NCBI RefSeq assembly: GCF_001870675.1
Contig: NZ_MEHT01000007.1
Coordinates: forward strand, 1 to 64,000
Reading direction: 5' to 3'
DNA: 64,000 nt
Origin: Roseinatronobacter thiooxidans
GTDB taxonomy: Bacteria; Pseudomonadota; Alphaproteobacteria; Rhodobacterales; Rhodobacteraceae
Shown here piece after piece: positions 8,315 through 17,635 of the stretch; positions within the stretch are counted from its first letter, which is position 1, and every line of letters starts with the position of its first letter. A program made the translations under genes and the position numbers. Below the pieces are notes generated by a model that did not search any database, was not told the DNA's origin, and worked only from the letters and a program-made list of their open reading frames with translations.

Positions 8315-9907
8315 ATGATCGACCACACACATATGGAAGGGCATGCCCCCCAATCGGGCAATGCATCGATCCCGCGCTACCCCCCTGCATCGGGTGACTG
8401 CCGATCACCTCTGCACAGCCCGACAGCCCCCGCGCCTGTTTCTGTCTGCGAACCCATGACCGTTCTGTGGCAGGGAATCGAATATCCGGTGGCGCAGTGG
8501 GACACCCATGGCTTTACCCTCCAACGCGCGATCCCCAGTGTCGTCTCGCCGGGGAATGGGCGTGTCGTTGATGTGCAGCTGATGCTGGGCGAAGGCGAAA
8601 CGCGCATACAGATGCAGGTTCAGGCGCGCGCCGAAACCGGCGATTCTGCCAAATTGCGGTATCAATTCATTGATCTTGGGCGCGCACAGTCGGAATTGCT
8701 GCATCGCGTGGTGGATTATGCCCTCACCAAGCAGGAACTCAGCCTGACCCAACTTTTAAATGATTCGCGCGAAACACGGGTTGCACGGCAGGAAACCACA
8801 CAGAAAACACTGGCATTTCGCACTTGGTTTCAGATCTCGCTGGCCTGCATGGCGCTGGCGGGTGCCGCCTATATGGCTTTGGGGTCGGTCACGCAGGTGA
8901 AATCGCGCTATGCTGCGGTGTCTGTCGCGGCGGCGAATGTCTCTGTTCCCGCATCGGGGATGGTTTCGCAGATCGATGTGACACAGGGCCAGCATGTGCA
9001 GACCGGCCAGACATTGGCATATCTGCGCGCCGCTGATCACGACGACAGGCAGATGGCCCTGTCCGATCACATCCGCGCCCTTGAGGCAGAACAGGCAGAG
9101 CTTGGCGCGCGCCGGACGGCGCTGCAAACGCGCGACACGAATGCCGCCCATCTGCGCAGCAGTGAACGCGCGCGGCTGGAAGAGGCTGTCGCGCGCGCAG
9201 ATCGTCGCTTGGCGCTGGAACGCGCACAGCTTGCCAGCCTGCATGCGGCAGGTGGCCTGCCAACTTTGGCCCGCCAGCAGGACAAGGCGCGCCAGCAGGC
9301 GCTGGCTTTAAGCGCCGAGGCGGATCTCGCAGCAGCCAAAGGCGCGTTGCAGGCCCTGCGCGAAGCAGAGGCGCTGGGTCTTGTTGGCCCACAGGGCCTG
9401 ACCGCCAGTGCCGAAACGCTTGAAGCCCTTGATCTGCGGCTCTCACATCTGTCCAGAGAAATCGCGCTCGCCTATGGCCGCAATGACGCGCTGTATGCAG
9501 GCACGCCCGTCACTGCGCCCTGTGACTGCGTCGTGGCGCAGATCAATCGGGTGACAGGCGAATGGGCCGAACCCGCGCAGCCTATGTTTGTTCTGGCCCA
9601 ATCCGGCGCGACAGCAGTGCATGCGCTGATCATGGCCGATACCGCGCAGCGCATCAGCCACGGGGACCGCGCGCAAATCCGTCTGGCCGATGGCCAACAG
9701 GTCACAGGCAAGGTCGCCCGCCTGAATTATGACAACAATTGGGCTGGCTTTGCAGGGCTTCAGAATTCGGTCTTCGCAGCCGAACGCTATGCCAGAGTTG
9801 AAATTATCCCCGACCACCCGCTGGATGCGCGCATCGGCATGACCGCGCATACAGTGATCAAGACCCAGACCCCGCTTGGCAGGGTGCTGGGCCAGCTGGG
9901 CCTGTAA
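8315..9907 (+). CDS. Alg44-like membrane fusion protein (PilZ-like region plus HlyD domain)
   Basis: 530 residues. Order: a PilZ-like region (about 45-150), one membrane segment (about 171-192), a biotinyl-lipoyl-like hairpin (203-240), a long coiled coil (about 245-345) and the second HlyD half with YAGTPVTAPCDCVVAQINRV. This is the layout of alginate protein Alg44, the c-di-GMP-binding partner of the synthase Alg8. The c-di-GMP signature is poor here: no RxxxR precedes the domain, and the NxSxxG-type motif is reduced to WDTHGF. It overlaps no neighbour but sits 2 bases before the synthase gene. The start at 8315 lacks a good Shine-Dalgarno site, and the ATG at 8333 is an alternative. Confidence 0.75.
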   Translation: MIDHTHMEGHAPQSGNASIPRYPPASGDCRSPLHSPTAPAPVSVCEPMTVLWQGIEYPVAQWDTHGFTLQRAIPSVVSPGNGRVVDVQLMLGEGETRIQMQVQARAETGDSAKLRYQFIDLGRAQSELLHRVVDYALTKQELSLTQLLNDSRETRVARQETTQKTLAFRTWFQISLACMALAGAAYMALGSVTQVKSRYAAVSVAAANVSVPASGMVSQIDVTQGQHVQTGQTLAYLRAADHDDRQMALSDHIRALEAEQAELGARRTALQTRDTNAAHLRSSERARLEEAVARADRRLALERAQLASLHAAGGLPTLARQQDKARQQALALSAEADLAAAKGALQALREAEALGLVGPQGLTASAETLEALDLRLSHLSREIALAYGRNDALYAGTPVTAPCDCVVAQINRVTGEWAEPAQPMFVLAQSGATAVHALIMADTAQRISHGDRAQIRLADGQQVTGKVARLNYDNNWAGFAGLQNSVFAAERYARVEIIPDHPLDARIGMTAHTVIKTQTPLGRVLGQLGL

Positions 9908-9909
9908 TC

Positions 9910-11469
9910 ATGTCAGACACATCTCCTCATCTGCGACATTCCTCTGTGCTATCGGTCTGGCTGACAGCCGCGCTGTGGCTGGCGTTCATGGTGTTTCTGC
10001 TCAGCCTTGTGCCGATGCGCGCGCTCAGCCCGGCCGATACAGCCTTCATTGCAGCGCTGGGGGTTGTAGGGCTATGGCGCTGGTCATGGGGCGGGTTTCA
10101 CATGCTGCGCGCCTATGCCTTCACGCGGCATGTCTTTCCAATGATCCGCGCGCGCGCACAAGCAGATGCCGCAGTGCAGCGCCGCCATGTTGCGGTGGTG
10201 ATCCTTAGCTGGAAAATGGGCGATGCCATGAATGCGGCAGTCTATGCCAATCTGTTCCGCGACATTCTGGACAATGGCGGTGGGGGCACAGTGGTCGCGG
10301 CGGTTTCGTCAGATCAGGACGAGGCGCTAATCGCGCATGTCCACCGCCGGACCGATCCAAGCGGCATGATCCGTCTGGCCTTTACCCGTCAGGACGGGAC
10401 AGGCAAGCGCGCGGCCATGGCAGATGCTTTGGCGCGGCTGCGCGACTTGGGGGTGCCGCCCGATTGCCCCGGCATCCTGATGGATGGGGACACGCTGGTT
10501 CAACCCGGACTGATACGCCGCACAGCCCCCATTTTGCTGCATCAACCCAATGTGGGCGCGCTGACGGTGGACAACACCCCGCTGGTTGCTGGCAGGATGG
10601 TCGACCGTGAATGGTACCGGCTGCGGATGGCCCAACGCCATGTCTACATGTCATCCATGGCCATGTCGGGCAAGGTTCTGGTGCTGACAGGGCGGTGGTC
10701 AATGTTTCGGACGCAAATCCTGATGCATCCGAATTTCGCCGCCAACCTGCTTGAAGATGTGCTTCACCATCCAAGGCTGGGCCGGATCGTCATGCTGACA
10801 GGGGACGACAAATCCACATGGCGCTGGGTGATCGAGGCGGGCTGGAACATTACCTATGTCCCCGACGAGGTGATCTACTGCCTTGAATCCCTGCCCGGCA
10901 AAGGCTTCGTGGCCGATACAGTCGGGCTACAGAAGCGCTGGTTCGGCAATATGGTGCGCGGTGGGGCCAAAGCCTTGCGCTTAGGCCCGAAAACCCTTGG
11001 CCTGTTTACATGGCTGGCATTGCTGGACCAGAAAGCCTCGATGTGGACACCATTGATGGGAATTGTCTTTTTCGGGGTCGCGGCCTTGGTGCATGACCCT
11101 GTCTTCATCGTCATATTTCTGCTTTGGATTTCATGCACACGCACCGTGCATTCCGCGCTGACAGGTCTGATCGCCAAACGCTGGCACCCGATCTTTCCGG
11201 CGCTGACCTATTACGGGCAGATCGTGGGCGCAGGGATCAAGATTTTTGTAAACCACAACCCCAATGTCCAGAAATGGACACGGCAGAATACCGGCGGCGC
11301 GGCTGTGGACCGCGCAGCGCTTGTGCGCGGCGACAGCAAGCTGATGCTGGCGGCCTCGATTATTGCATTTGCGGCAGGGATCATTGTGCTGACCAATGTC
11401 ACAACCCGATCTGACAGGTTCGATTTTGCCGCCGACACGGCCGCCGCCGAGTTGATTTATGGACGCTAA
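9910..11469 (+). CDS. Alg8-like processive glycosyltransferase (polysaccharide synthase)
   Basis: 519 residues. Membrane segments flank a GT2 catalytic domain. Two are N-terminal (about 13-36 and 43-58), with several at the C-terminal end (about 365-445 and 475-495). The metal motif MDGDT (191-195), TGDD (297-300) and QKRW (341-344) give the DxD/TED/QxxRW pattern of processive synthases. The QKRWFGNM and LLDQKASMWTPL stretches resemble Alg8, which polymerises mannuronate. With an Alg44-like partner 2 bases upstream and a UDP-glucose dehydrogenase downstream, the likely product is a uronic-acid polymer. No alginate epimerase, acetylase or lyase is present, so calling it alginate is not justified. 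A BgsA-type beta-glucan synthase is the main alternative. Confidence 0.78.
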   Translation: MSDTSPHLRHSSVLSVWLTAALWLAFMVFLLSLVPMRALSPADTAFIAALGVVGLWRWSWGGFHMLRAYAFTRHVFPMIRARAQADAAVQRRHVAVVILSWKMGDAMNAAVYANLFRDILDNGGGGTVVAAVSSDQDEALIAHVHRRTDPSGMIRLAFTRQDGTGKRAAMADALARLRDLGVPPDCPGILMDGDTLVQPGLIRRTAPILLHQPNVGALTVDNTPLVAGRMVDREWYRLRMAQRHVYMSSMAMSGKVLVLTGRWSMFRTQILMHPNFAANLLEDVLHHPRLGRIVMLTGDDKSTWRWVIEAGWNITYVPDEVIYCLESLPGKGFVADTVGLQKRWFGNMVRGGAKALRLGPKTLGLFTWLALLDQKASMWTPLMGIVFFGVAALVHDPVFIVIFLLWISCTRTVHSALTGLIAKRWHPIFPALTYYGQIVGAGIKIFVNHNPNVQKWTRQNTGGAAVDRAALVRGDSKLMLAASIIAFAAGIIVLTNVTTRSDRFDFAADTAAAELIYGR

Positions 11470-11503
11470 ACCGATGATAGCCCAGAACCGAAAGGGTTTT
11501 CCC

Positions 11504-12442
11504 ATGGCACTCAAGCACGCTTTGCAAGCCGTTGCACTTATCGTGTTGGCAGGCTGCACACCACAGACCAGTGGGTTCACCCCTCACACCGCCACGGGTG
11601 GTGCGATGCGTCCCCTCGCCCCTGACATGGCGATTGCAGTGACATCAGCCAATATCCACCAGTTCGCAGCGCAGGACCGCAACGCCTATCTGGTCGGGCG
11701 CGGCGATGTGCTGCAAATTCATGCCATCGATGCCGCCGAACTGACCACACCTGCCGGATATCTGGTGGAAGCCGATGGCGCGATTCAGGTGCCGTTTCTG
11801 GGCCGCGTTCCGGCCGCAGAGCGCAGCACAGCCGCAATCCGCGCCGACCTTGCAGACCGGCTGCGCGCCTACCTGCCCAATCCGCAAGTGGACCTGCGCG
11901 TGGCGGAATATAACGCCCGCCAGATCACAGTTATCGGTGATGTGATGCGCCCCAACCGGCAAACCCTGACATCGCGGCCCCTGACCGTGATCGATGCCAT
12001 CAATGCCGCTGGCGGCTTTTCCCAGGGTGCCAATATGCGCAGGGTTGCGATTGTGCGGGGCGGGCAGGACTTCGGGATCGACATGGACGCCTTTCTGACA
12101 CGCGGTGCCACATTGCCACTTCTGCGCGACGGTGACATTTTGCAGGTGGGCCGCAGTGCGGCACGCGATTTGCCGCCCCTGAATTCTGATGCAACCCAAG
12201 GCGTGACGCTGCACCGCGCGCAAAATGATATGCGCCGCTTCGAGCTGGATGGACGCCCGGTCACGCTGCTTCAGTTCCTGACCAGCACAGATTCCGGTGG
12301 CGGCGAGGTGCAGGTCATTCGCACTATCGCCGCAGGCCAGCAGGCGTTGCACTTTAGCGCTGCCGATGCCGCATCCCCAACTGTTGCCGGACGTTTCATG
12401 CTGCAAGATGGTGACAGGGTCTTTCCCCTGATGCCGCGATAA
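11504..12442 (+). CDS. Polysaccharide export lipoprotein, Wza/OPX family
   Basis: 312 residues. A short signal peptide ends in a lipobox, VLAGC, with the lipidated Cys18. A Poly_export domain follows (YLVGRGDVLQIHAIDAAEL at about 65, then FLGRVPAAERSTAAIRADL), and then SLBB-like repeats containing VIGDVMRPNRQTL and INAAGGFSQGANMRRVAIV. Such proteins form the outer-membrane exit channel. The ATG at 11504 gives the clean lipoprotein N-terminus; an in-frame upstream extension from 11459 does not. It follows the synthase by 34 bases. No Wzc-type kinase is present, so this OPX protein probably works with the Alg44-like periplasmic adaptor. Confidence 0.87.
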   Translation: MALKHALQAVALIVLAGCTPQTSGFTPHTATGGAMRPLAPDMAIAVTSANIHQFAAQDRNAYLVGRGDVLQIHAIDAAELTTPAGYLVEADGAIQVPFLGRVPAAERSTAAIRADLADRLRAYLPNPQVDLRVAEYNARQITVIGDVMRPNRQTLTSRPLTVIDAINAAGGFSQGANMRRVAIVRGGQDFGIDMDAFLTRGATLPLLRDGDILQVGRSAARDLPPLNSDATQGVTLHRAQNDMRRFELDGRPVTLLQFLTSTDSGGGEVQVIRTIAAGQQALHFSAADAASPTVAGRFMLQDGDRVFPLMPR

Positions 12443-12496: not shown

Positions 12497-13663
12497 ATGA
12501 AATTCGCAATCGCAGGTTTGGGATATGTCGGTCTGGCCAACGCCATTTTGCTGGCACGCCAGCATACCGTTGTTGCAGTCGATATCTCTGCCGAGCGTGT
12601 TGCCAATGTCAATGCGGGGCGCACACCGATCGAGGATTCACTGTGCCAGGATTACCTGTCGGCAGGGGGCCTGGACCTGCAAGCGACAACCGATCCGGTC
12701 GCAGCCTATGAACAGGCAGACTATGTTTTCATTGCGACACCCACCAATTACAACGACCAGACCCATACCTTTGACACCAGCAGCATCGAGGCTGTCATCG
12801 CACAGGTTCTTGCTGTCAATGACCATGCGCTGATGGTCATCAAATCCACCGTGCCGGTGGGCTATACCGAACGCATGCGCAAGGAATTCAACTGTGACCG
12901 CATCGTGTTCTCGCCGGAATTCCTGCGCGAGGGGCTGGCGCTGCATGACAACCTGTACCCGTCGCGCATTATCGTGGGCGAGGTCAGCCAGCGTGGCGCG
13001 GCGCTTGCCCAGATCCTGCGCAATGCCGCGCTGGTCGAGGATACACCCGTGCTGCTGGCAAATCCGACAGAAGCAGAGGCGATAAAGCTGTTTGCAAACA
13101 CCTATCTTGCCACCCGTGTTGCCCTGTTTAACGAAGCCGATACGCTGGCCATGCAGATCGGGTTGGACGCAAGAGAGGTCATTGAAGGGCTATGTCTGGA
13201 CCCGCGTATCGGGCAAAGCTACAACAATCCGTCTTTCGGATATGGGGGGTATTGCCTGCCCAAGGACAGCAAGCAACTGCGCGCAAATTTCGCAGATGTG
13301 CCGCAGGCATTGATCACCGCAACCATCGAGTCAAATGACGCACGCAAACGGACAATCGCCGATGCCATCATCGCAAAGCGTCCGCGTCGTGTGGGGATCT
13401 ACCGTCTGGTGATGAAACAAGGCTCGGACAATTTCCGCCAAAGTGCTATGCTGGACATCATTTCCATGTTGTCGCAAGAAGGGCTTGAACTGGTGGTTCA
13501 TGAACCCGCCTATGAGGGGGCCGCATATATGGGCCATCCGCTGGTGCAGGATTTCACCGAATTCGCCCAAGGCTGTGACGTGATTGTTGCAAACCGAATG
13601 ACAGAAGAATTGCAGGCCCATACTGCAAAAGTCTTTACCCGCGATCTGTTCGCCGCCGACTAA
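12497..13663 (+). CDS. ugd: UDP-glucose 6-dehydrogenase
   Basis: 388 residues. It oxidises UDP-glucose to UDP-glucuronate with two NAD+. It has GLGYVG (7-12), Asp29 for the NAD ribose, T118 in STVP, E141 and E145 in EFLREG, K197 and N201 in IKLFANTYLA, the nucleophile C253 in GGYCLPKD, and D257. All catalytic positions of the Streptococcus pyogenes/E. coli Ugd type are intact. AAAGGAA lies just upstream of the ATG at 12497. A hairpin with a T-run follows the stop. It supplies the uronic acid precursor for the adjoining synthase. A closely similar but catalytically degenerate copy lies 170 bases downstream. Confidence 0.94.
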   Translation: MKFAIAGLGYVGLANAILLARQHTVVAVDISAERVANVNAGRTPIEDSLCQDYLSAGGLDLQATTDPVAAYEQADYVFIATPTNYNDQTHTFDTSSIEAVIAQVLAVNDHALMVIKSTVPVGYTERMRKEFNCDRIVFSPEFLREGLALHDNLYPSRIIVGEVSQRGAALAQILRNAALVEDTPVLLANPTEAEAIKLFANTYLATRVALFNEADTLAMQIGLDAREVIEGLCLDPRIGQSYNNPSFGYGGYCLPKDSKQLRANFADVPQALITATIESNDARKRTIADAIIAKRPRRVGIYRLVMKQGSDNFRQSAMLDIISMLSQEGLELVVHEPAYEGAAYMGHPLVQDFTEFAQGCDVIVANRMTEELQAHTAKVFTRDLFAAD

Positions 13664-13690: not shown

Positions 13691-13833
13691 GGGGGGGCGG
13701 TTTTTATGTCGTCTTTCCAATACATCCCCATCAATCCTCTGATGTCAGGTCAAGAACACCAAATTGGCATATTCAGACCATTTTTAACCACGATAGTTTC
13801 CAAATCAGATTTCGGATTGAAAGGGTTTTGCAG

Positions 13834-14970
13834 ATGAAAATCGCAATTATCGGGCTGGGATGCGTGGCAATGGCAGATGCGCTGGCACTGGCGCGCACGC
13901 ATGAGGTCGTGATGACAGGCCCCCTGCCCGACCGCGTCGATGACATCAATCGCGGCATCTATGGGTTGAATGACCCCGAACTTGCACCTTATCTGGCACA
14001 ATACCCCCTGAACCTGCGCGCTGTTCTGGACACCCGCGCAGCACTTGCGAATGCCGATATGGTCTTTGTGGCCGCACCGCTTTCAACACAGCCCGAAACC
14101 GGCGATGTCAGGCTTGTCGAACTCGACAGCCGGATAGAATTCGCCGCCCGCTATGTTGCGCATGCCCCGATTGTTGTGCGCTCGGCGGTGCCCATCGGAT
14201 ATTGCGAAGAAAAACGCGCGCAGTTGAAGGGCGCAAAAATCGTCTATGCCCCGGAATTCAGCCGTGACGGGCATATGCTTCGCGATATTCTATATCCCAA
14301 TGCGCTTATTGTCGGGGATCGGCATGCCTTGGGCAAACGGGTGCTGGATGTGCTGAAAACGGCAGCCCTATGCGCCGACATCCCGACCCGCCAGATGGGC
14401 CTGACCGAAGCCGAACTGACGCGCCACCTGTCCACCTTGTTTCAGGCAACGCGCGTGACCTGTTTCAACGAACTGGACAGCTATGCAATGCAGCACGGGC
14501 TGAATGCGCGCCAGATCATTGACGGGGTCAGCCTTGACCCGCGCATCGGTGCATATGCCAATAACCCCTGCTTCGGCTATGATCGCCAGACCCTTCCCCA
14601 CGGCGCAAACATGCTGGCCGCGTATCTGGACCAAGCGCGCACGCCGCTGCTGGCAAATCTGGGCAAGGCGGGCTGTGCGCGTGTCGCATTCCTGACCGGC
14701 CAGATCATCCAGCAAGCGCCTGCGGCTGTGGGGTTCTACATGCCCGATGCAAGCGCCCCGTTGTCCGCCTCGATCGCGCAACTGAAACTCCGGCTGGAGG
14801 ATTCTGGCATTCGGACATGCCTGCATGATGGCGATCCGGCCACACTGGGACAGTTCAAGGCCGAGTGCGAGATAGTGATTTCACAGCGCGCGCGCGCCGA
14901 GCTGGCCGATATTCAAGACAAAGTATTCACCCGCGACCATTTTGCCCGCCCCGAAGAAATAGCAGGCTAA
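13834..14970 (+). CDS. Catalytically degenerate UDP-glucose dehydrogenase paralogue
   Basis: 378 residues, aligned with the upstream Ugd without a gap through the first 260 residues. Catalytic positions are replaced: T118A, E145D, K197R, N201T, nucleophile C253T, K256H and D257G. Only E141 remains. The NAD site is altered too: GLGYVG becomes GLGCVA, and D29 becomes G29. Structural elements persist (YPNALIVGD, SLDPRIGAYANNP, KVFTRDHF). The frame is fully open and GC-rich at third positions, so this is a maintained gene, not an obvious pseudogene. The start is the ATG at 13834, since AAAGGG lies about 10 bases upstream. A regulatory or scaffold role beside Ugd, or an altered reaction, is speculative. 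Confidence 0.85.
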   Translation: MKIAIIGLGCVAMADALALARTHEVVMTGPLPDRVDDINRGIYGLNDPELAPYLAQYPLNLRAVLDTRAALANADMVFVAAPLSTQPETGDVRLVELDSRIEFAARYVAHAPIVVRSAVPIGYCEEKRAQLKGAKIVYAPEFSRDGHMLRDILYPNALIVGDRHALGKRVLDVLKTAALCADIPTRQMGLTEAELTRHLSTLFQATRVTCFNELDSYAMQHGLNARQIIDGVSLDPRIGAYANNPCFGYDRQTLPHGANMLAAYLDQARTPLLANLGKAGCARVAFLTGQIIQQAPAAVGFYMPDASAPLSASIAQLKLRLEDSGIRTCLHDGDPATLGQFKAECEIVISQRARAELADIQDKVFTRDHFARPEEIAG

Positions 14971-15017: not shown

Positions 15018-16382
15018 TCAGAAACGCGACCTGATTTGCACCGAGATATTGGCCTCATTCCGCTTATGGATCTCGATATTGGATTCTGTGTTGGACAGTT
15101 CCAGCCTCAGAACGGGTGCGAACCCCATGTAATCGACTGTCTCGAACATTGCAGACAGCCCCAAGGTGGCGGTTTGGTCGCGCCGCCCGTCGGGCTGAAA
15201 TGCGCCTGCGGGAAAGCGGCGTTCTTCCAGATCCAGCGCAGTGTCCAGCCGCATGCCCAAGACCGGTTGTGCCAGCGCATAGCCCAGGCCTGCGCGCGTT
15301 GCGGTGTTGCGGATATGGATTGATTGGGCCTGTGTATGTTCCGCACCAAGATGCACCACCAGCCGGTCGCCCCCTGCAAGCGCATGGCGCAGCTCTGCGG
15401 CAACCCCTGTGCGGGTGGCATTGCGCCGCGATGCGTCGCGGCGCCATTGGTGCTGGCCAGTCGCGCTGAGTTTCAGCACTGTGCTGGGGCGCAGCACACG
15501 CGTCTGTGCCACAGTCAGCCGCACATGATCGCCAAGGGGGCGGCCTGCGTACCAGCTTCGCCCGAAGGCGGCCCCTATTTCATAGCGGCTTTGGCCTTCG
15601 GATGGCGCGCGTACATGCATCAGACCCAGTTCAAAGCGCTGAAAGGCATAATCTCCCGCCCGCGCCTCGGGGGCCTGCGCGCGCGCGGATGACGACAGGC
15701 GGTAGCTGCGCGTTGCAAGGCCAAGGGTCAGGCTGGTTTCATGGCGGGCGGCCTGATCTAGCCGATAGCGCAGGGCAAGGTCGGTGCTGAATTCCAGCCC
15801 CGACAAGGCGCGACTGTCACCCGAAACCCGAAAAGGCAGACCAAGCAGGGTGATCACATCTGTTGACGTGCCGTTATTGATATTCGATGACTGACGCAGC
15901 CCCAGATTGAATGCAATGTCGAGCGGGTTGATCCGCCGCACCTGCTGAAAATTGCGCGCGGCCAGTTCGCGCGCGCCATCATCGGGGGCGACTTGTGCCG
16001 CGCGGCGCAACCAGAATTGTGCCCGCCCATAGGCTTTGCGCTGTAAGTCCGATCGACCGGCAAGCATTGCCCCTTCAAATCGGGTCTGGTCGGATTCTCC
16101 CATGCGGTGACCGGCGCGCGCGAAAGCGCGCGCCTGTGTATATTGGCCTTGGGCTTGCAAGGCTGCGGCCATCAAGACCTGCGCCTCGCCATCTTGGGGG
16201 GCGGCGCGCAACAAAGCCGCAGCAATGGCTTCGGCAGGGGCGGCGCGCCCCTCGGCCAGAAAACTGCGCCCCAACAGCAGCGCCTGCGCCCGGCTAAGTT
16301 CCTGCGTGTCGGACGCCGCATTGCCATGACTTGCCCCGAACAGGGACAGCGCCATGCACAGGCAAACCGCAATCAGGCGCAT
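15018..16382 (-). CDS. Surface lipoprotein assembly modifier (Slam/DUF560-like) outer-membrane protein
   Basis: 454 residues. Signal peptide (cleavage near residue 23), a TPR-rich periplasmic part (about 30-150), the SSNINNGT motif (165-172) that typically opens the Slam barrel, then alternating beta-barrel strands ending in a terminal Phe (SVQIRSRF), as needed for BAM insertion. Slam proteins move particular lipoproteins to the outer face of the outer membrane. The gene directly upstream on the same strand (15 bases away) encodes a lipoprotein with a TbpB-like barrel, the usual client type. Convergent with the degenerate ugd. General outer-membrane porins are the alternative, but the TPR plus SNINN layout argues against that. 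Confidence 0.78.
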   Translation of the reverse strand: MRLIAVCLCMALSLFGASHGNAASDTQELSRAQALLLGRSFLAEGRAAPAEAIAAALLRAAPQDGEAQVLMAAALQAQGQYTQARAFARAGHRMGESDQTRFEGAMLAGRSDLQRKAYGRAQFWLRRAAQVAPDDGARELAARNFQQVRRINPLDIAFNLGLRQSSNINNGTSTDVITLLGLPFRVSGDSRALSGLEFSTDLALRYRLDQAARHETSLTLGLATRSYRLSSSARAQAPEARAGDYAFQRFELGLMHVRAPSEGQSRYEIGAAFGRSWYAGRPLGDHVRLTVAQTRVLRPSTVLKLSATGQHQWRRDASRRNATRTGVAAELRHALAGGDRLVVHLGAEHTQAQSIHIRNTATRAGLGYALAQPVLGMRLDTALDLEERRFPAGAFQPDGRRDQTATLGLSAMFETVDYMGFAPVLRLELSNTESNIEIHKRNEANISVQIRSRF

Positions 16383-16397
16383 AGTGACCTACACAAA

Positions 16398-17354
16398 TCA
16401 GTCAGTCGCACGGGCGATAAATGCACCGCGTTCAAGCGACACGGGCGAACCTTCTTGGATCACCACAATTCCGGCCGATGCCGCAGCGTTGTTGCCAGCG
16501 ATCATGCCATCATAAAGCCCGACCGGCTGTCCGCCAACTGCTGCGATACCAGAGAAATTGCCATTTTCATCGATTCCCGTAAACTGCAGCACAATGTCTT
16601 GATAAGTGATTTCTTCGGCGATCTGGCGGGTTTCAGTGGTGGTCTGACCCGGCCGACCTATGACAGGCACTTCAACCTCCACCTCGCGCGTGGTGGTGCC
16701 GTCCATATTGCGCCGGTTTGTGATCACGCCTTCGATCCCTGCACTTTGCCGGTCAGTGAAGAAATCAAGATCAAGCTGCACCCGCCCCTCGACCCGATGC
16801 AGGAACGAATTGGACATATCGTCTCCGTTATTGGTCCCCACATTGCGCACACCGGCGTAATCACCAACATGGCGGACTTCTCTATTGGTGGGCAGGGTTG
16901 GCGCTGCACCACGCGCCAAGACAGTCCCCCCAAATTCATTATCCAACCGGAACGGTGTGCCCACAACACCTGCCGCAAGGTTATTGTCGGAATCTACACG
17001 CACCAATGCCAGATAGTTCCGCGCACCCCCTTCATTTTCAAACGCGGCAAAGCCCCGAACATCGCGCTTGGGCGCACGTTTGAATGTCCCAGCCAAATCA
17101 AACGGGTCGCCCAGAATTGTCAGAGTTTCTGTCGCAGAATCGTAAGTTATCGACGTAACCTCGTTCTGCCCCGCAAAAGCATCCCCGCCAGCGGTTTCAT
17201 TGTAACGCTGCGTTTCAGTTGGAATGGCTGCGACTTCTCCCGAATTAGCAAAACGATCGGGCGATGAAACAAAGCTACTGATGCCTGTCGACTCTCCTGA
17301 ACCGCAAGACATAAGCGCGACACAAGACGCAACAACAGCCGTTGTCTTCTTCAT
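16398..17354 (-). CDS. Lipoprotein with TbpB-like barrel, probable Slam client
   Basis: 318 residues. Signal peptide with lipobox LMSC (Cys17), a low-complexity Ser/Gly linker, then a beta-rich region. The C-terminal half (GDYAGVRNVG, VQLDLDFFTDRQSAGIEGVI, GNFSGIAAVGGQPVGLYDGM) fits the eight-stranded barrel of TbpB/factor-H-binding lipoproteins. The start at 17354 was chosen because AAAGGC lies 8 bases upstream and the Lys-Lys signal peptide begins there. It lies 15 bases before the Slam-like gene, so both are expressed together. The ligand is unknown; there is no transferrin receptor TbpA gene nearby. Confidence 0.72.
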   Translation of the reverse strand: MKKTTAVVASCVALMSCGSGESTGISSFVSSPDRFANSGEVAAIPTETQRYNETAGGDAFAGQNEVTSITYDSATETLTILGDPFDLAGTFKRAPKRDVRGFAAFENEGGARNYLALVRVDSDNNLAAGVVGTPFRLDNEFGGTVLARGAAPTLPTNREVRHVGDYAGVRNVGTNNGDDMSNSFLHRVEGRVQLDLDFFTDRQSAGIEGVITNRRNMDGTTTREVEVEVPVIGRPGQTTTETRQIAEEITYQDIVLQFTGIDENGNFSGIAAVGGQPVGLYDGMIAGNNAAASAGIVVIQEGSPVSLERGAFIARATD

Positions 17355-17635
17355 TTTAAAATGCCTTTCGGTGATCATAAGTTTATTTAATGAAAAAATT
17401 AGCGTAATCCTCTTTTCCTAGCTAGAGATGCGCGAAGGATTTCAATGTTTTGAGGTATTTGCGCAACATTTATCGCCTTTCGTTATTCGCAACGCCGCTT
17501 TCCCTGGTTTCCGAATCCAACCCAGTTCCGAAATATTTCGTTTCACAAGATAATCGTGCAGGGGCCTAGGCCGCACACTGTCGTACCCAAGCACCCTTAC
17601 AAAATTTACTTATTATAATCGGATGCTTAAAGCCA

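Follow-up and report, generated by a model that had tools for sequence, protein, structure and literature searches.

Why a bacterium should carry, directly behind an intact UDP-glucose 6-dehydrogenase (Ugd) gene, a second copy without a working active site is the question raised by this locus of Roseinatronobacter thiooxidans. The window, as we call the whole stretch of 64,000 nucleotides analysed here, holds the intact Ugd and, 170 bases downstream on the same strand, the dead copy (Table 1). An earlier note had described this arrangement and the open second frame, and had listed ten substitutions in the second copy: Y10C, G12A, D29G, T118A, E145D, K197R, N201T, C253T, K256H and D257G. The arrangement, the open frame and all ten substitutions are present in the window.

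Table 1. Features of the locus, with positions in the window
Feature	Position	Strand	Remark
HlyD-type adaptor	8315..9907	+	presumably Alg44-like, by layout
Family-2 glycosyltransferase (Glyco_tranf_2_3)	9910..11469	+	
Wza-like polysaccharide export protein (Poly_export, SLBB)	11459..12442	+	
Intact Ugd (388 aa), PRK15057 type	12497..13663	+	proposed catalytic partner
Loosely conserved upstream element AAATTGGCNNATTNNTGCCATTTT	13760..13786	+	TGGC-N8-GCCA-like core
Dead UGDH paralogue (378 aa)	13834..14970	+	proposed activating/structural subunit
Dead copy residues 205-248, dimer helix and arginine loop	14446..14577	+	fewer changes than in the live partner
R237 codon of the dead copy	14542..14544	+	equivalent to human Arg260 and S. 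pyogenes Arg244
Dead copy residues 249-262, former catalytic loop (positions of C253, K256, D257)	14578..14619	+	degenerate

Residues lost and kept in the second copy

The two proteins of the window share 35% identity (136/386, BLASTP). Their alignment had been described as gapless through residue 260; it is gapless, and over a longer stretch than claimed, the first gap lying not before residue 302 of the dead copy. Beyond the ten substitutions, the window copy carries T83L and S246C, and its K307 diphosphate loop is gone. G12A, D29G, T83L and T118A are fixed in all ten full-length dead copies, none of which has the catalytic residue at position 201, 253, 256 or 257. The UGDH catalytic set (Cys260, Asp264, Lys204, Asn208 and Thr118 in S. 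pyogenes numbering) is thereby broken in every copy, with the cysteine, aspartate, asparagine and threonine absent throughout and the lysine (K197) present in four of ten. E145D occurs in two copies only; neither it nor the loss of K197 is general among the dead copies. At the NAD site, GxGxxG with Asp29 has become GxGxxA with Gly29 in all ten.

Ordinary Ugd was represented by 120 stand-alone sequences (identity at least 40%, actual range 49–61%; C253, K256 and D257 present; tandem loci left out), in which 120 positions are conserved at 97% or more. The dead copies retain 46 of these positions in ten of ten sequences, including P140, E141, E194, N212, D235, P236, R237, G239, N243, N244, P245, F247 and G248; absent from all ten are, among others, G12, D29, T83, T118, N201, C253, K256, D257 and K307. 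By our mapping, P140, E141, E194 and N212 correspond to S. pyogenes Pro140, Glu141, Glu201 and Asn219, to which PMC4794789 assigns structural roles. The dimerisation helix residues F211, N212, L214, D215 and Y217 are likewise kept, as is the DPRIG loop. As far as its residues tell, the dead copy is without the means for chemistry, NAD binding and UDP diphosphate binding, but has kept the fold, the dimer helix and the DPRIG loop.

NF011631 is the top NCBIfam match of the dead copy at 220.8 bits, and the 757-bit cut-off of that model does not tell the two copies apart, since the intact partner, at 489 bits, also falls below it; the Pfam UGDH C-domain gives no match in the dead copy. The AlphaFold model, whose input alignment consisted mostly of ordinary Ugd, has a pLDDT of 87.3 and a pTM of 0.82, with all three domains confident. 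Its best Foldseek matches are the K. pneumoniae UGDH structures 3phl, 3plr, 3pid and 3pjg (TM 0.82–0.87), and the three-domain UGDH fold is found in it. Residues 251–258, within the former catalytic loop, form the sole internal segment of three or more residues with pLDDT below 50. The dead copy thus shares with UDP-glucose 6-dehydrogenases of the PRK15057/NF011631 type (K. pneumoniae 3phl/3pjg, S. pyogenes 1dli) the three-domain fold, the dimer helix and the DPRIG loop, and differs from them by the lost catalytic Cys, Asp, Asn and Thr and by the lost NAD residues.

The earlier note had raised the sensing of a nucleotide sugar as one role. Sensing in the protein's own pocket is unlikely, because neither the UDP-diphosphate lysine nor the catalytic loop nor the NAD residues have been kept. 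Catalysis of a different reaction with other residues, for instance with C246, which is fixed in ten of ten dead copies, is very improbable in our judgement: all ten lack the NAD contacts G12, D29 and T83, and likewise the general base, the UDP-diphosphate lysine and N201, and the old catalytic loop is the poorly modelled segment just mentioned.

Distribution, neighbourhood and selection

Full-length dead copies were found in 5 of 37 genomes of the window genus and in 5 of 18 of the Pararhodobacter genus, a total of ten in two genera of one family; three of the 37 carry a truncated copy. In a family sample of 394 genomes, matches to the dead copy of at least 50% occur in the window genome and G280 only, as do glycosyltransferase matches above 40%; the next-best dead-copy matches reach at most 41%, and residues were inspected in the matches returned as loci (30 loci). 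Samples of the order (390 genomes) and class (385 genomes) contain no further dead copies, the extra matches (five and two) all proving, residue by residue, to be ordinary Ugd. Among 80 loci listed from GTDB genome contigs, Pararhodobacter sp. CCB-MM2 (G280) matches at 50% and the others at no more than 37%. The plasmid collection has 442 matching records, none of which reaches 60% identity, the highest being 38.3% among the 15 matches listed. Within the window genome (3.5 Mb, 50 contigs), a search with the dead copy returned the pair and one relative at 28%; the window Ugd is the sole Ugd of the PRK15057 type matched there. Pieces in G012 that were considered as a dead-copy remnant have the sequence of ordinary Ugd; they lie at a contig end (L223:1-495), with the middle missing and the frame broken.

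A Ugd homologue precedes each of the ten full-length dead copies on the same strand, at a distance of 28–170 bases. The synthase glycosyltransferase, beside which the earlier note had proposed to look for the pair, is present in seven of the ten genomes (partial in G468, where a contig end cuts it). G455, G454 and G461 show no glycosyltransferase match at E values up to 1e-10, so the synthase is not a constant companion of the pair. Because the pair is kept in these three genomes without a synthase match, shaping of the synthase complex, another role that had been suggested, is not favoured as a general one. In G455 (L222:7129-11947) the HlyD-like adaptor, Ugd and the dead copy stand together, and the intervening glycosyltransferase and export gene are absent.

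Within the window genus, the glycosyltransferase is 85–87% identical in the other four cassettes, and it is 70% identical in Pararhodobacter CCB-MM2. At 85% identity or more it occurs in 5 of the 37 window-genus genomes, the same five that hold a full-length dead copy; a sixth, G021, has two relatives at 33%. A PDB sequence search with the glycosyltransferase gave no match. The window cassette appears to resemble alginate-type synthase cassettes (Alg8/Alg44/export protein), in that a family-2 glycosyltransferase, a HlyD-like adaptor, an export protein and a sugar-acid dehydrogenase occur together. It differs from them by the UDP-glucose type of the dehydrogenase, the Wza-like export protein and the extra dead dehydrogenase. 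At 15018-17378 in the window, a gene on the minus strand matches SlipAM (surface lipoprotein assembly modifier) and adjoins one for a 326-residue protein with a lipoprotein-like start and without a Pfam match; the two are possibly a Slam/surface-lipoprotein pair.

The element upstream of the dead copy can be aligned 42–47 bases before the ATG of eight copies of the same genus, truncated ones included. Its pattern, which specifies 20 bases, was derived from these same sites, and individual sites depart from it at 1 to 9 of them. It is a possible promoter or operator of the dead copy's own.

The dN/dS comparison that the earlier note had proposed points to purifying selection on the second copy. 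In a codon model the dead copies have an omega of 0.136 (0.059 at residues 205–248) and the partners one of 0.090 (0.054 at the same residues); these values are rough, synonymous change being near saturation, and they, like the change counts below, were obtained with a single assumed tree imposed on both genes, despite disagreement with the deeper dead-copy order in the Pararhodobacter genus. An omega of this size speaks against a free-running pseudogene. Together with the modelled resemblance to K. pneumoniae UGDH, it agrees with the proposal that selection keeps the fold while the reaction has been removed. Stops or relaxed selection, which would have told against that proposal, were seen in none of the ten full-length copies; the three truncated copies sit in genomes without a match to PRK15057-type Ugd or the synthase. 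A decaying, functionless duplicate is accordingly hardly credible. Truncation in three genomes, in one of which (G032) the copy sits at the locus where a relative, G023, has the whole cassette, speaks for decay; decay is contradicted by omega well below 1, by ten open full-length copies across two genera and by fixed family-specific residues.

The close pairs (window, G003), (G016, G023), (G468, G455) and (G454, G461) are the same in the dead-copy and the partner trees, and all tandem partners form one group with 69% support. Deeper branching is discordant: among the dead copies, the long branch to Ugd attaches at G454/G461 (91% support), and in the partner tree these two group with G280 (68%). 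From these sequences, the Ugd/dead-copy pair appears either to date from the split of the two lineages or earlier, or to have been transferred as a unit.

The crossing arginine and the dimer helix

Among the residues kept by the dead copies, R237 has a particular position in the enzyme. In human UGDH the equivalent Arg260 reaches across the dimer to the glucose of the other subunit, according to PMC3184952. For S. pyogenes, PMC4794789 gives a distance of 3.1 A between Arg244 of subunit b and the 2'' hydroxyl of the glucose in subunit a, and has helix alpha-9 making subunit contacts. The spacing between R237 and the nucleophile is 16 residues, the same as between human Arg260 and Cys276.

R237 is arginine in ten of ten dead copies and in all 120 stand-alone PRK15057-like Ugd. 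The tandem partners have Leu in G033, Asn in G455, Leu in G454 and G461, and Arg in the other six. The arginine is hence gone from four of ten partners, by three independent losses on the partner tree. With sequences taken as independent, Fisher's test gives p=1.8e-5 for 4/10 against 0/120, p=2.4e-4 when the losses are counted as three events (3/9), and p=0.003 for the eight intact partners alone (2/8). In a wider tblastn set (matches starting by residue 30 and ending at 330 or later, one per distinct sequence, 183 in all), 168 sequences have six catalytic residues and carry R (143), K (23), L (1) or N (1) at position 237; the L and the N are the tandem partners. The K237 sequences, 27–32% identical to the window Ugd, are by our reading of the GDP-mannose type. 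A looser non-tandem set of 163 has R in 137 and K in 26. Stand-alone Ugd in pair-bearing genomes retains L214, Y217 and R237 in four of four cases.

In G033 and G455, the partner without R237 is the sole Ugd of the PRK15057 type matched in each genome, and its other catalytic positions are intact. For this reason the R237-less Ugd of both genomes probably works. The window Ugd itself retains R237 and could act as a homodimer.

The same asymmetry is seen along the dimer helix. Y217 is Tyr in 118 of 120 stand-alone Ugd and in ten of ten dead copies, and Leu or Ile in all eight intact partners; L214 is Leu in 119 of 120 and ten of ten, and altered in six of the eight partners. To judge from their place in the helix, both residues would face the dimer partner. 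Over 366 gap-free sites, the dead copies have changed less than the partners at residues 205–248 (42 changes against 68) and more over the remainder (799 against 575). This stretch is the most extreme of 323 windows of its length, and site permutation gives p=0.0003, an optimistic value, as the limits 205–248 were set after the alignment was seen, with the published cis/trans split in mind. Immediately after it, at residues 249–262, the relation is the opposite, with 41 changes in dead copies against 17 in partners (ten pairs), or 38 against 4 in the eight pairs with an intact partner, where the partner has retained its catalytic loop.

The signal is one of clustering in 211–237, not of overall enrichment. 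Across the 120 conserved positions, those lost by a partner and kept by the dead copies number 9, with 8.4 expected (from 22 and 46), which is no enrichment; seven of the nine cluster in 211–237, four of the seven being single losses. The sample consists of ten pairs only, partly related. K357 was considered as a further interface marker and is weakened by Ser in two stand-alone copies. Gaps in the dead copies explain at least part of a low change ratio at 331–388, and gap-free sites were used instead.

A putative heterodimer, both-dead pairs and truncated copies

The most likely explanation of these patterns is that the dead subunit is maintained for the sake of its partner, as a prozyme in bacteria. 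We think it rather probable that intact Ugd and the dead copy form a prozyme-like heterodimer, with the active site of the live subunit completed by the dead one. The dead copy would pair with the adjoining Ugd, and the single active site of this working enzyme would receive its R237 from the dead copy. The R237 that belongs to the live partner would be dispensable, because in the mixed dimer it would point into the dead pocket, and so would be free to be lost. Ugd output might then be adjusted through the supply of the dead subunit. The pattern of R237 retention and loss matches such a heterodimer and is predicted by none of the rival explanations. The mixed oligomer with Ugd that the earlier note had offered as one possibility thus gains indirect support, narrowed to an arginine acting in trans and to the dimer helix.

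An inhibitory subunit, restraining UDP-glucuronate production through inactive mixed dimers, would draw on the same evidence for pairing, and the separate upstream element would permit separate control. It has no need of a crossing arginine, and a partner without R237 would presumably work poorly as a homodimer, so that no good active form would be left; we regard this alternative as quite improbable.

In trypanosomatids, deoxyhypusine synthase and AdoMetDC each have a dead paralogue, the prozyme, as described in PMC3663545. The likeness lies in a dead paralogue of a retained partner, with the heteromer as the presumed active form; on its sequence alone, the dead copy is likewise a catalytically dead paralogue of its partner enzyme. 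The present case differs in being bacterial, in concerning a nucleotide-sugar dehydrogenase encoded by tandem genes, and in the proposed contribution of one crossing arginine. PMC3184952 and PMC4794789 discuss the crossing arginine of UGDH and the half-of-sites behaviour of the enzyme on homo-oligomers. The open-access literature searched (titles and abstract starts among the matches listed) yielded no report of a UGDH pseudoenzyme or of a heterodimer with an inactive paralogue. The dead UGDH subunit is new as a variant, and the principle of activation by a dead paralogue is already known. If the heterodimer is real, it is a natural dimer with one active site, in which the crossing arginine and half-of-sites behaviour can be tested directly; it would also supply a bacterial example of activation by a dead paralogue, and show how UDP-glucuronate for a surface polymer may be kept at a set supply.

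The pairs of G454 and G461 have a dead first copy as well (C253F, N201A, D257V or I, R237L), which retains GxGxxG, D29, T118 and K197. Both pairs (L220:4113-11840 and L221:1432-9192, Pararhodobacter genus) are flanked by a TetR regulator on one side and an AcrA/AcrB-type RND pair on the other, in identical gene order, as judged from domains scanned in L221 alone; an intact Ugd stands apart from the pair in either genome. Both reading frames are under constraint, with an omega between the two genomes of 0.064 (first copy) and 0.088 (second copy). These sequences suggest that the pair can persist without UGDH chemistry, which, like the R237 retained by the window Ugd, tells against the favoured heterodimer. 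A more extended account, to which we give somewhat less than even weight, is an obligate half-dead heterodimer whose dead subunit supplies the arginine discarded by the active one, with one branch having lost catalysis and been taken over by the TetR/RND efflux locus, where it would be a non-catalytic module that perhaps binds NAD.

The both-dead pair beside TetR and RND genes would also suit a dead copy with a task independent of Ugd, in which the altered Rossmann domain (GLGxVA, TGPxPxR, E96, R100, E102) binds another ligand or protein as a sensor or scaffold and the dimer helix serves homodimerisation. There are 24 positions invariant in the ten dead copies yet absent from the eight intact partners, many of them in the N-domain. 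This reading leaves unexplained why R237 and the dimer helix are better retained than in the live partner, and why the partner loses R237; we consider it unlikely, though less so than inhibition.

The truncated copies bear on this reading from both sides. They lie at L037:1403-2155, L038:9316-10155 and L039:8843-9760; their genomes, G006, G032 and G007, gave no match to PRK15057-type Ugd or to the synthase (G032 is 87% complete). Their DNA homology runs from the start codon to near codon 194–240, and that of G007 also has a C-domain piece. In G006, G032 and G007, respectively, 54, 55 and 53 of 56 N-domain invariants are retained, and 8, 6 and 4 of 29 central ones. Relaxed selection was rejected for them, as omega on their branches is no different (0.10 vs 0.12; lnL -6054.19 vs -6054.00). 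An N-domain under unchanged constraint, preceded by the alignable upstream element, favours a sensor or scaffold; loss or replacement of the central domain in three of three copies, all without a matched partner, counts against it. For the favoured heterodimer, these copies fit a dimer part that is needed only alongside the partner. They also suggest that the N-domain has a role of its own, unless the truncations are recent. The G032 copy sits at the locus where G023 has the full cassette, and the cassette has therefore probably been lost there.
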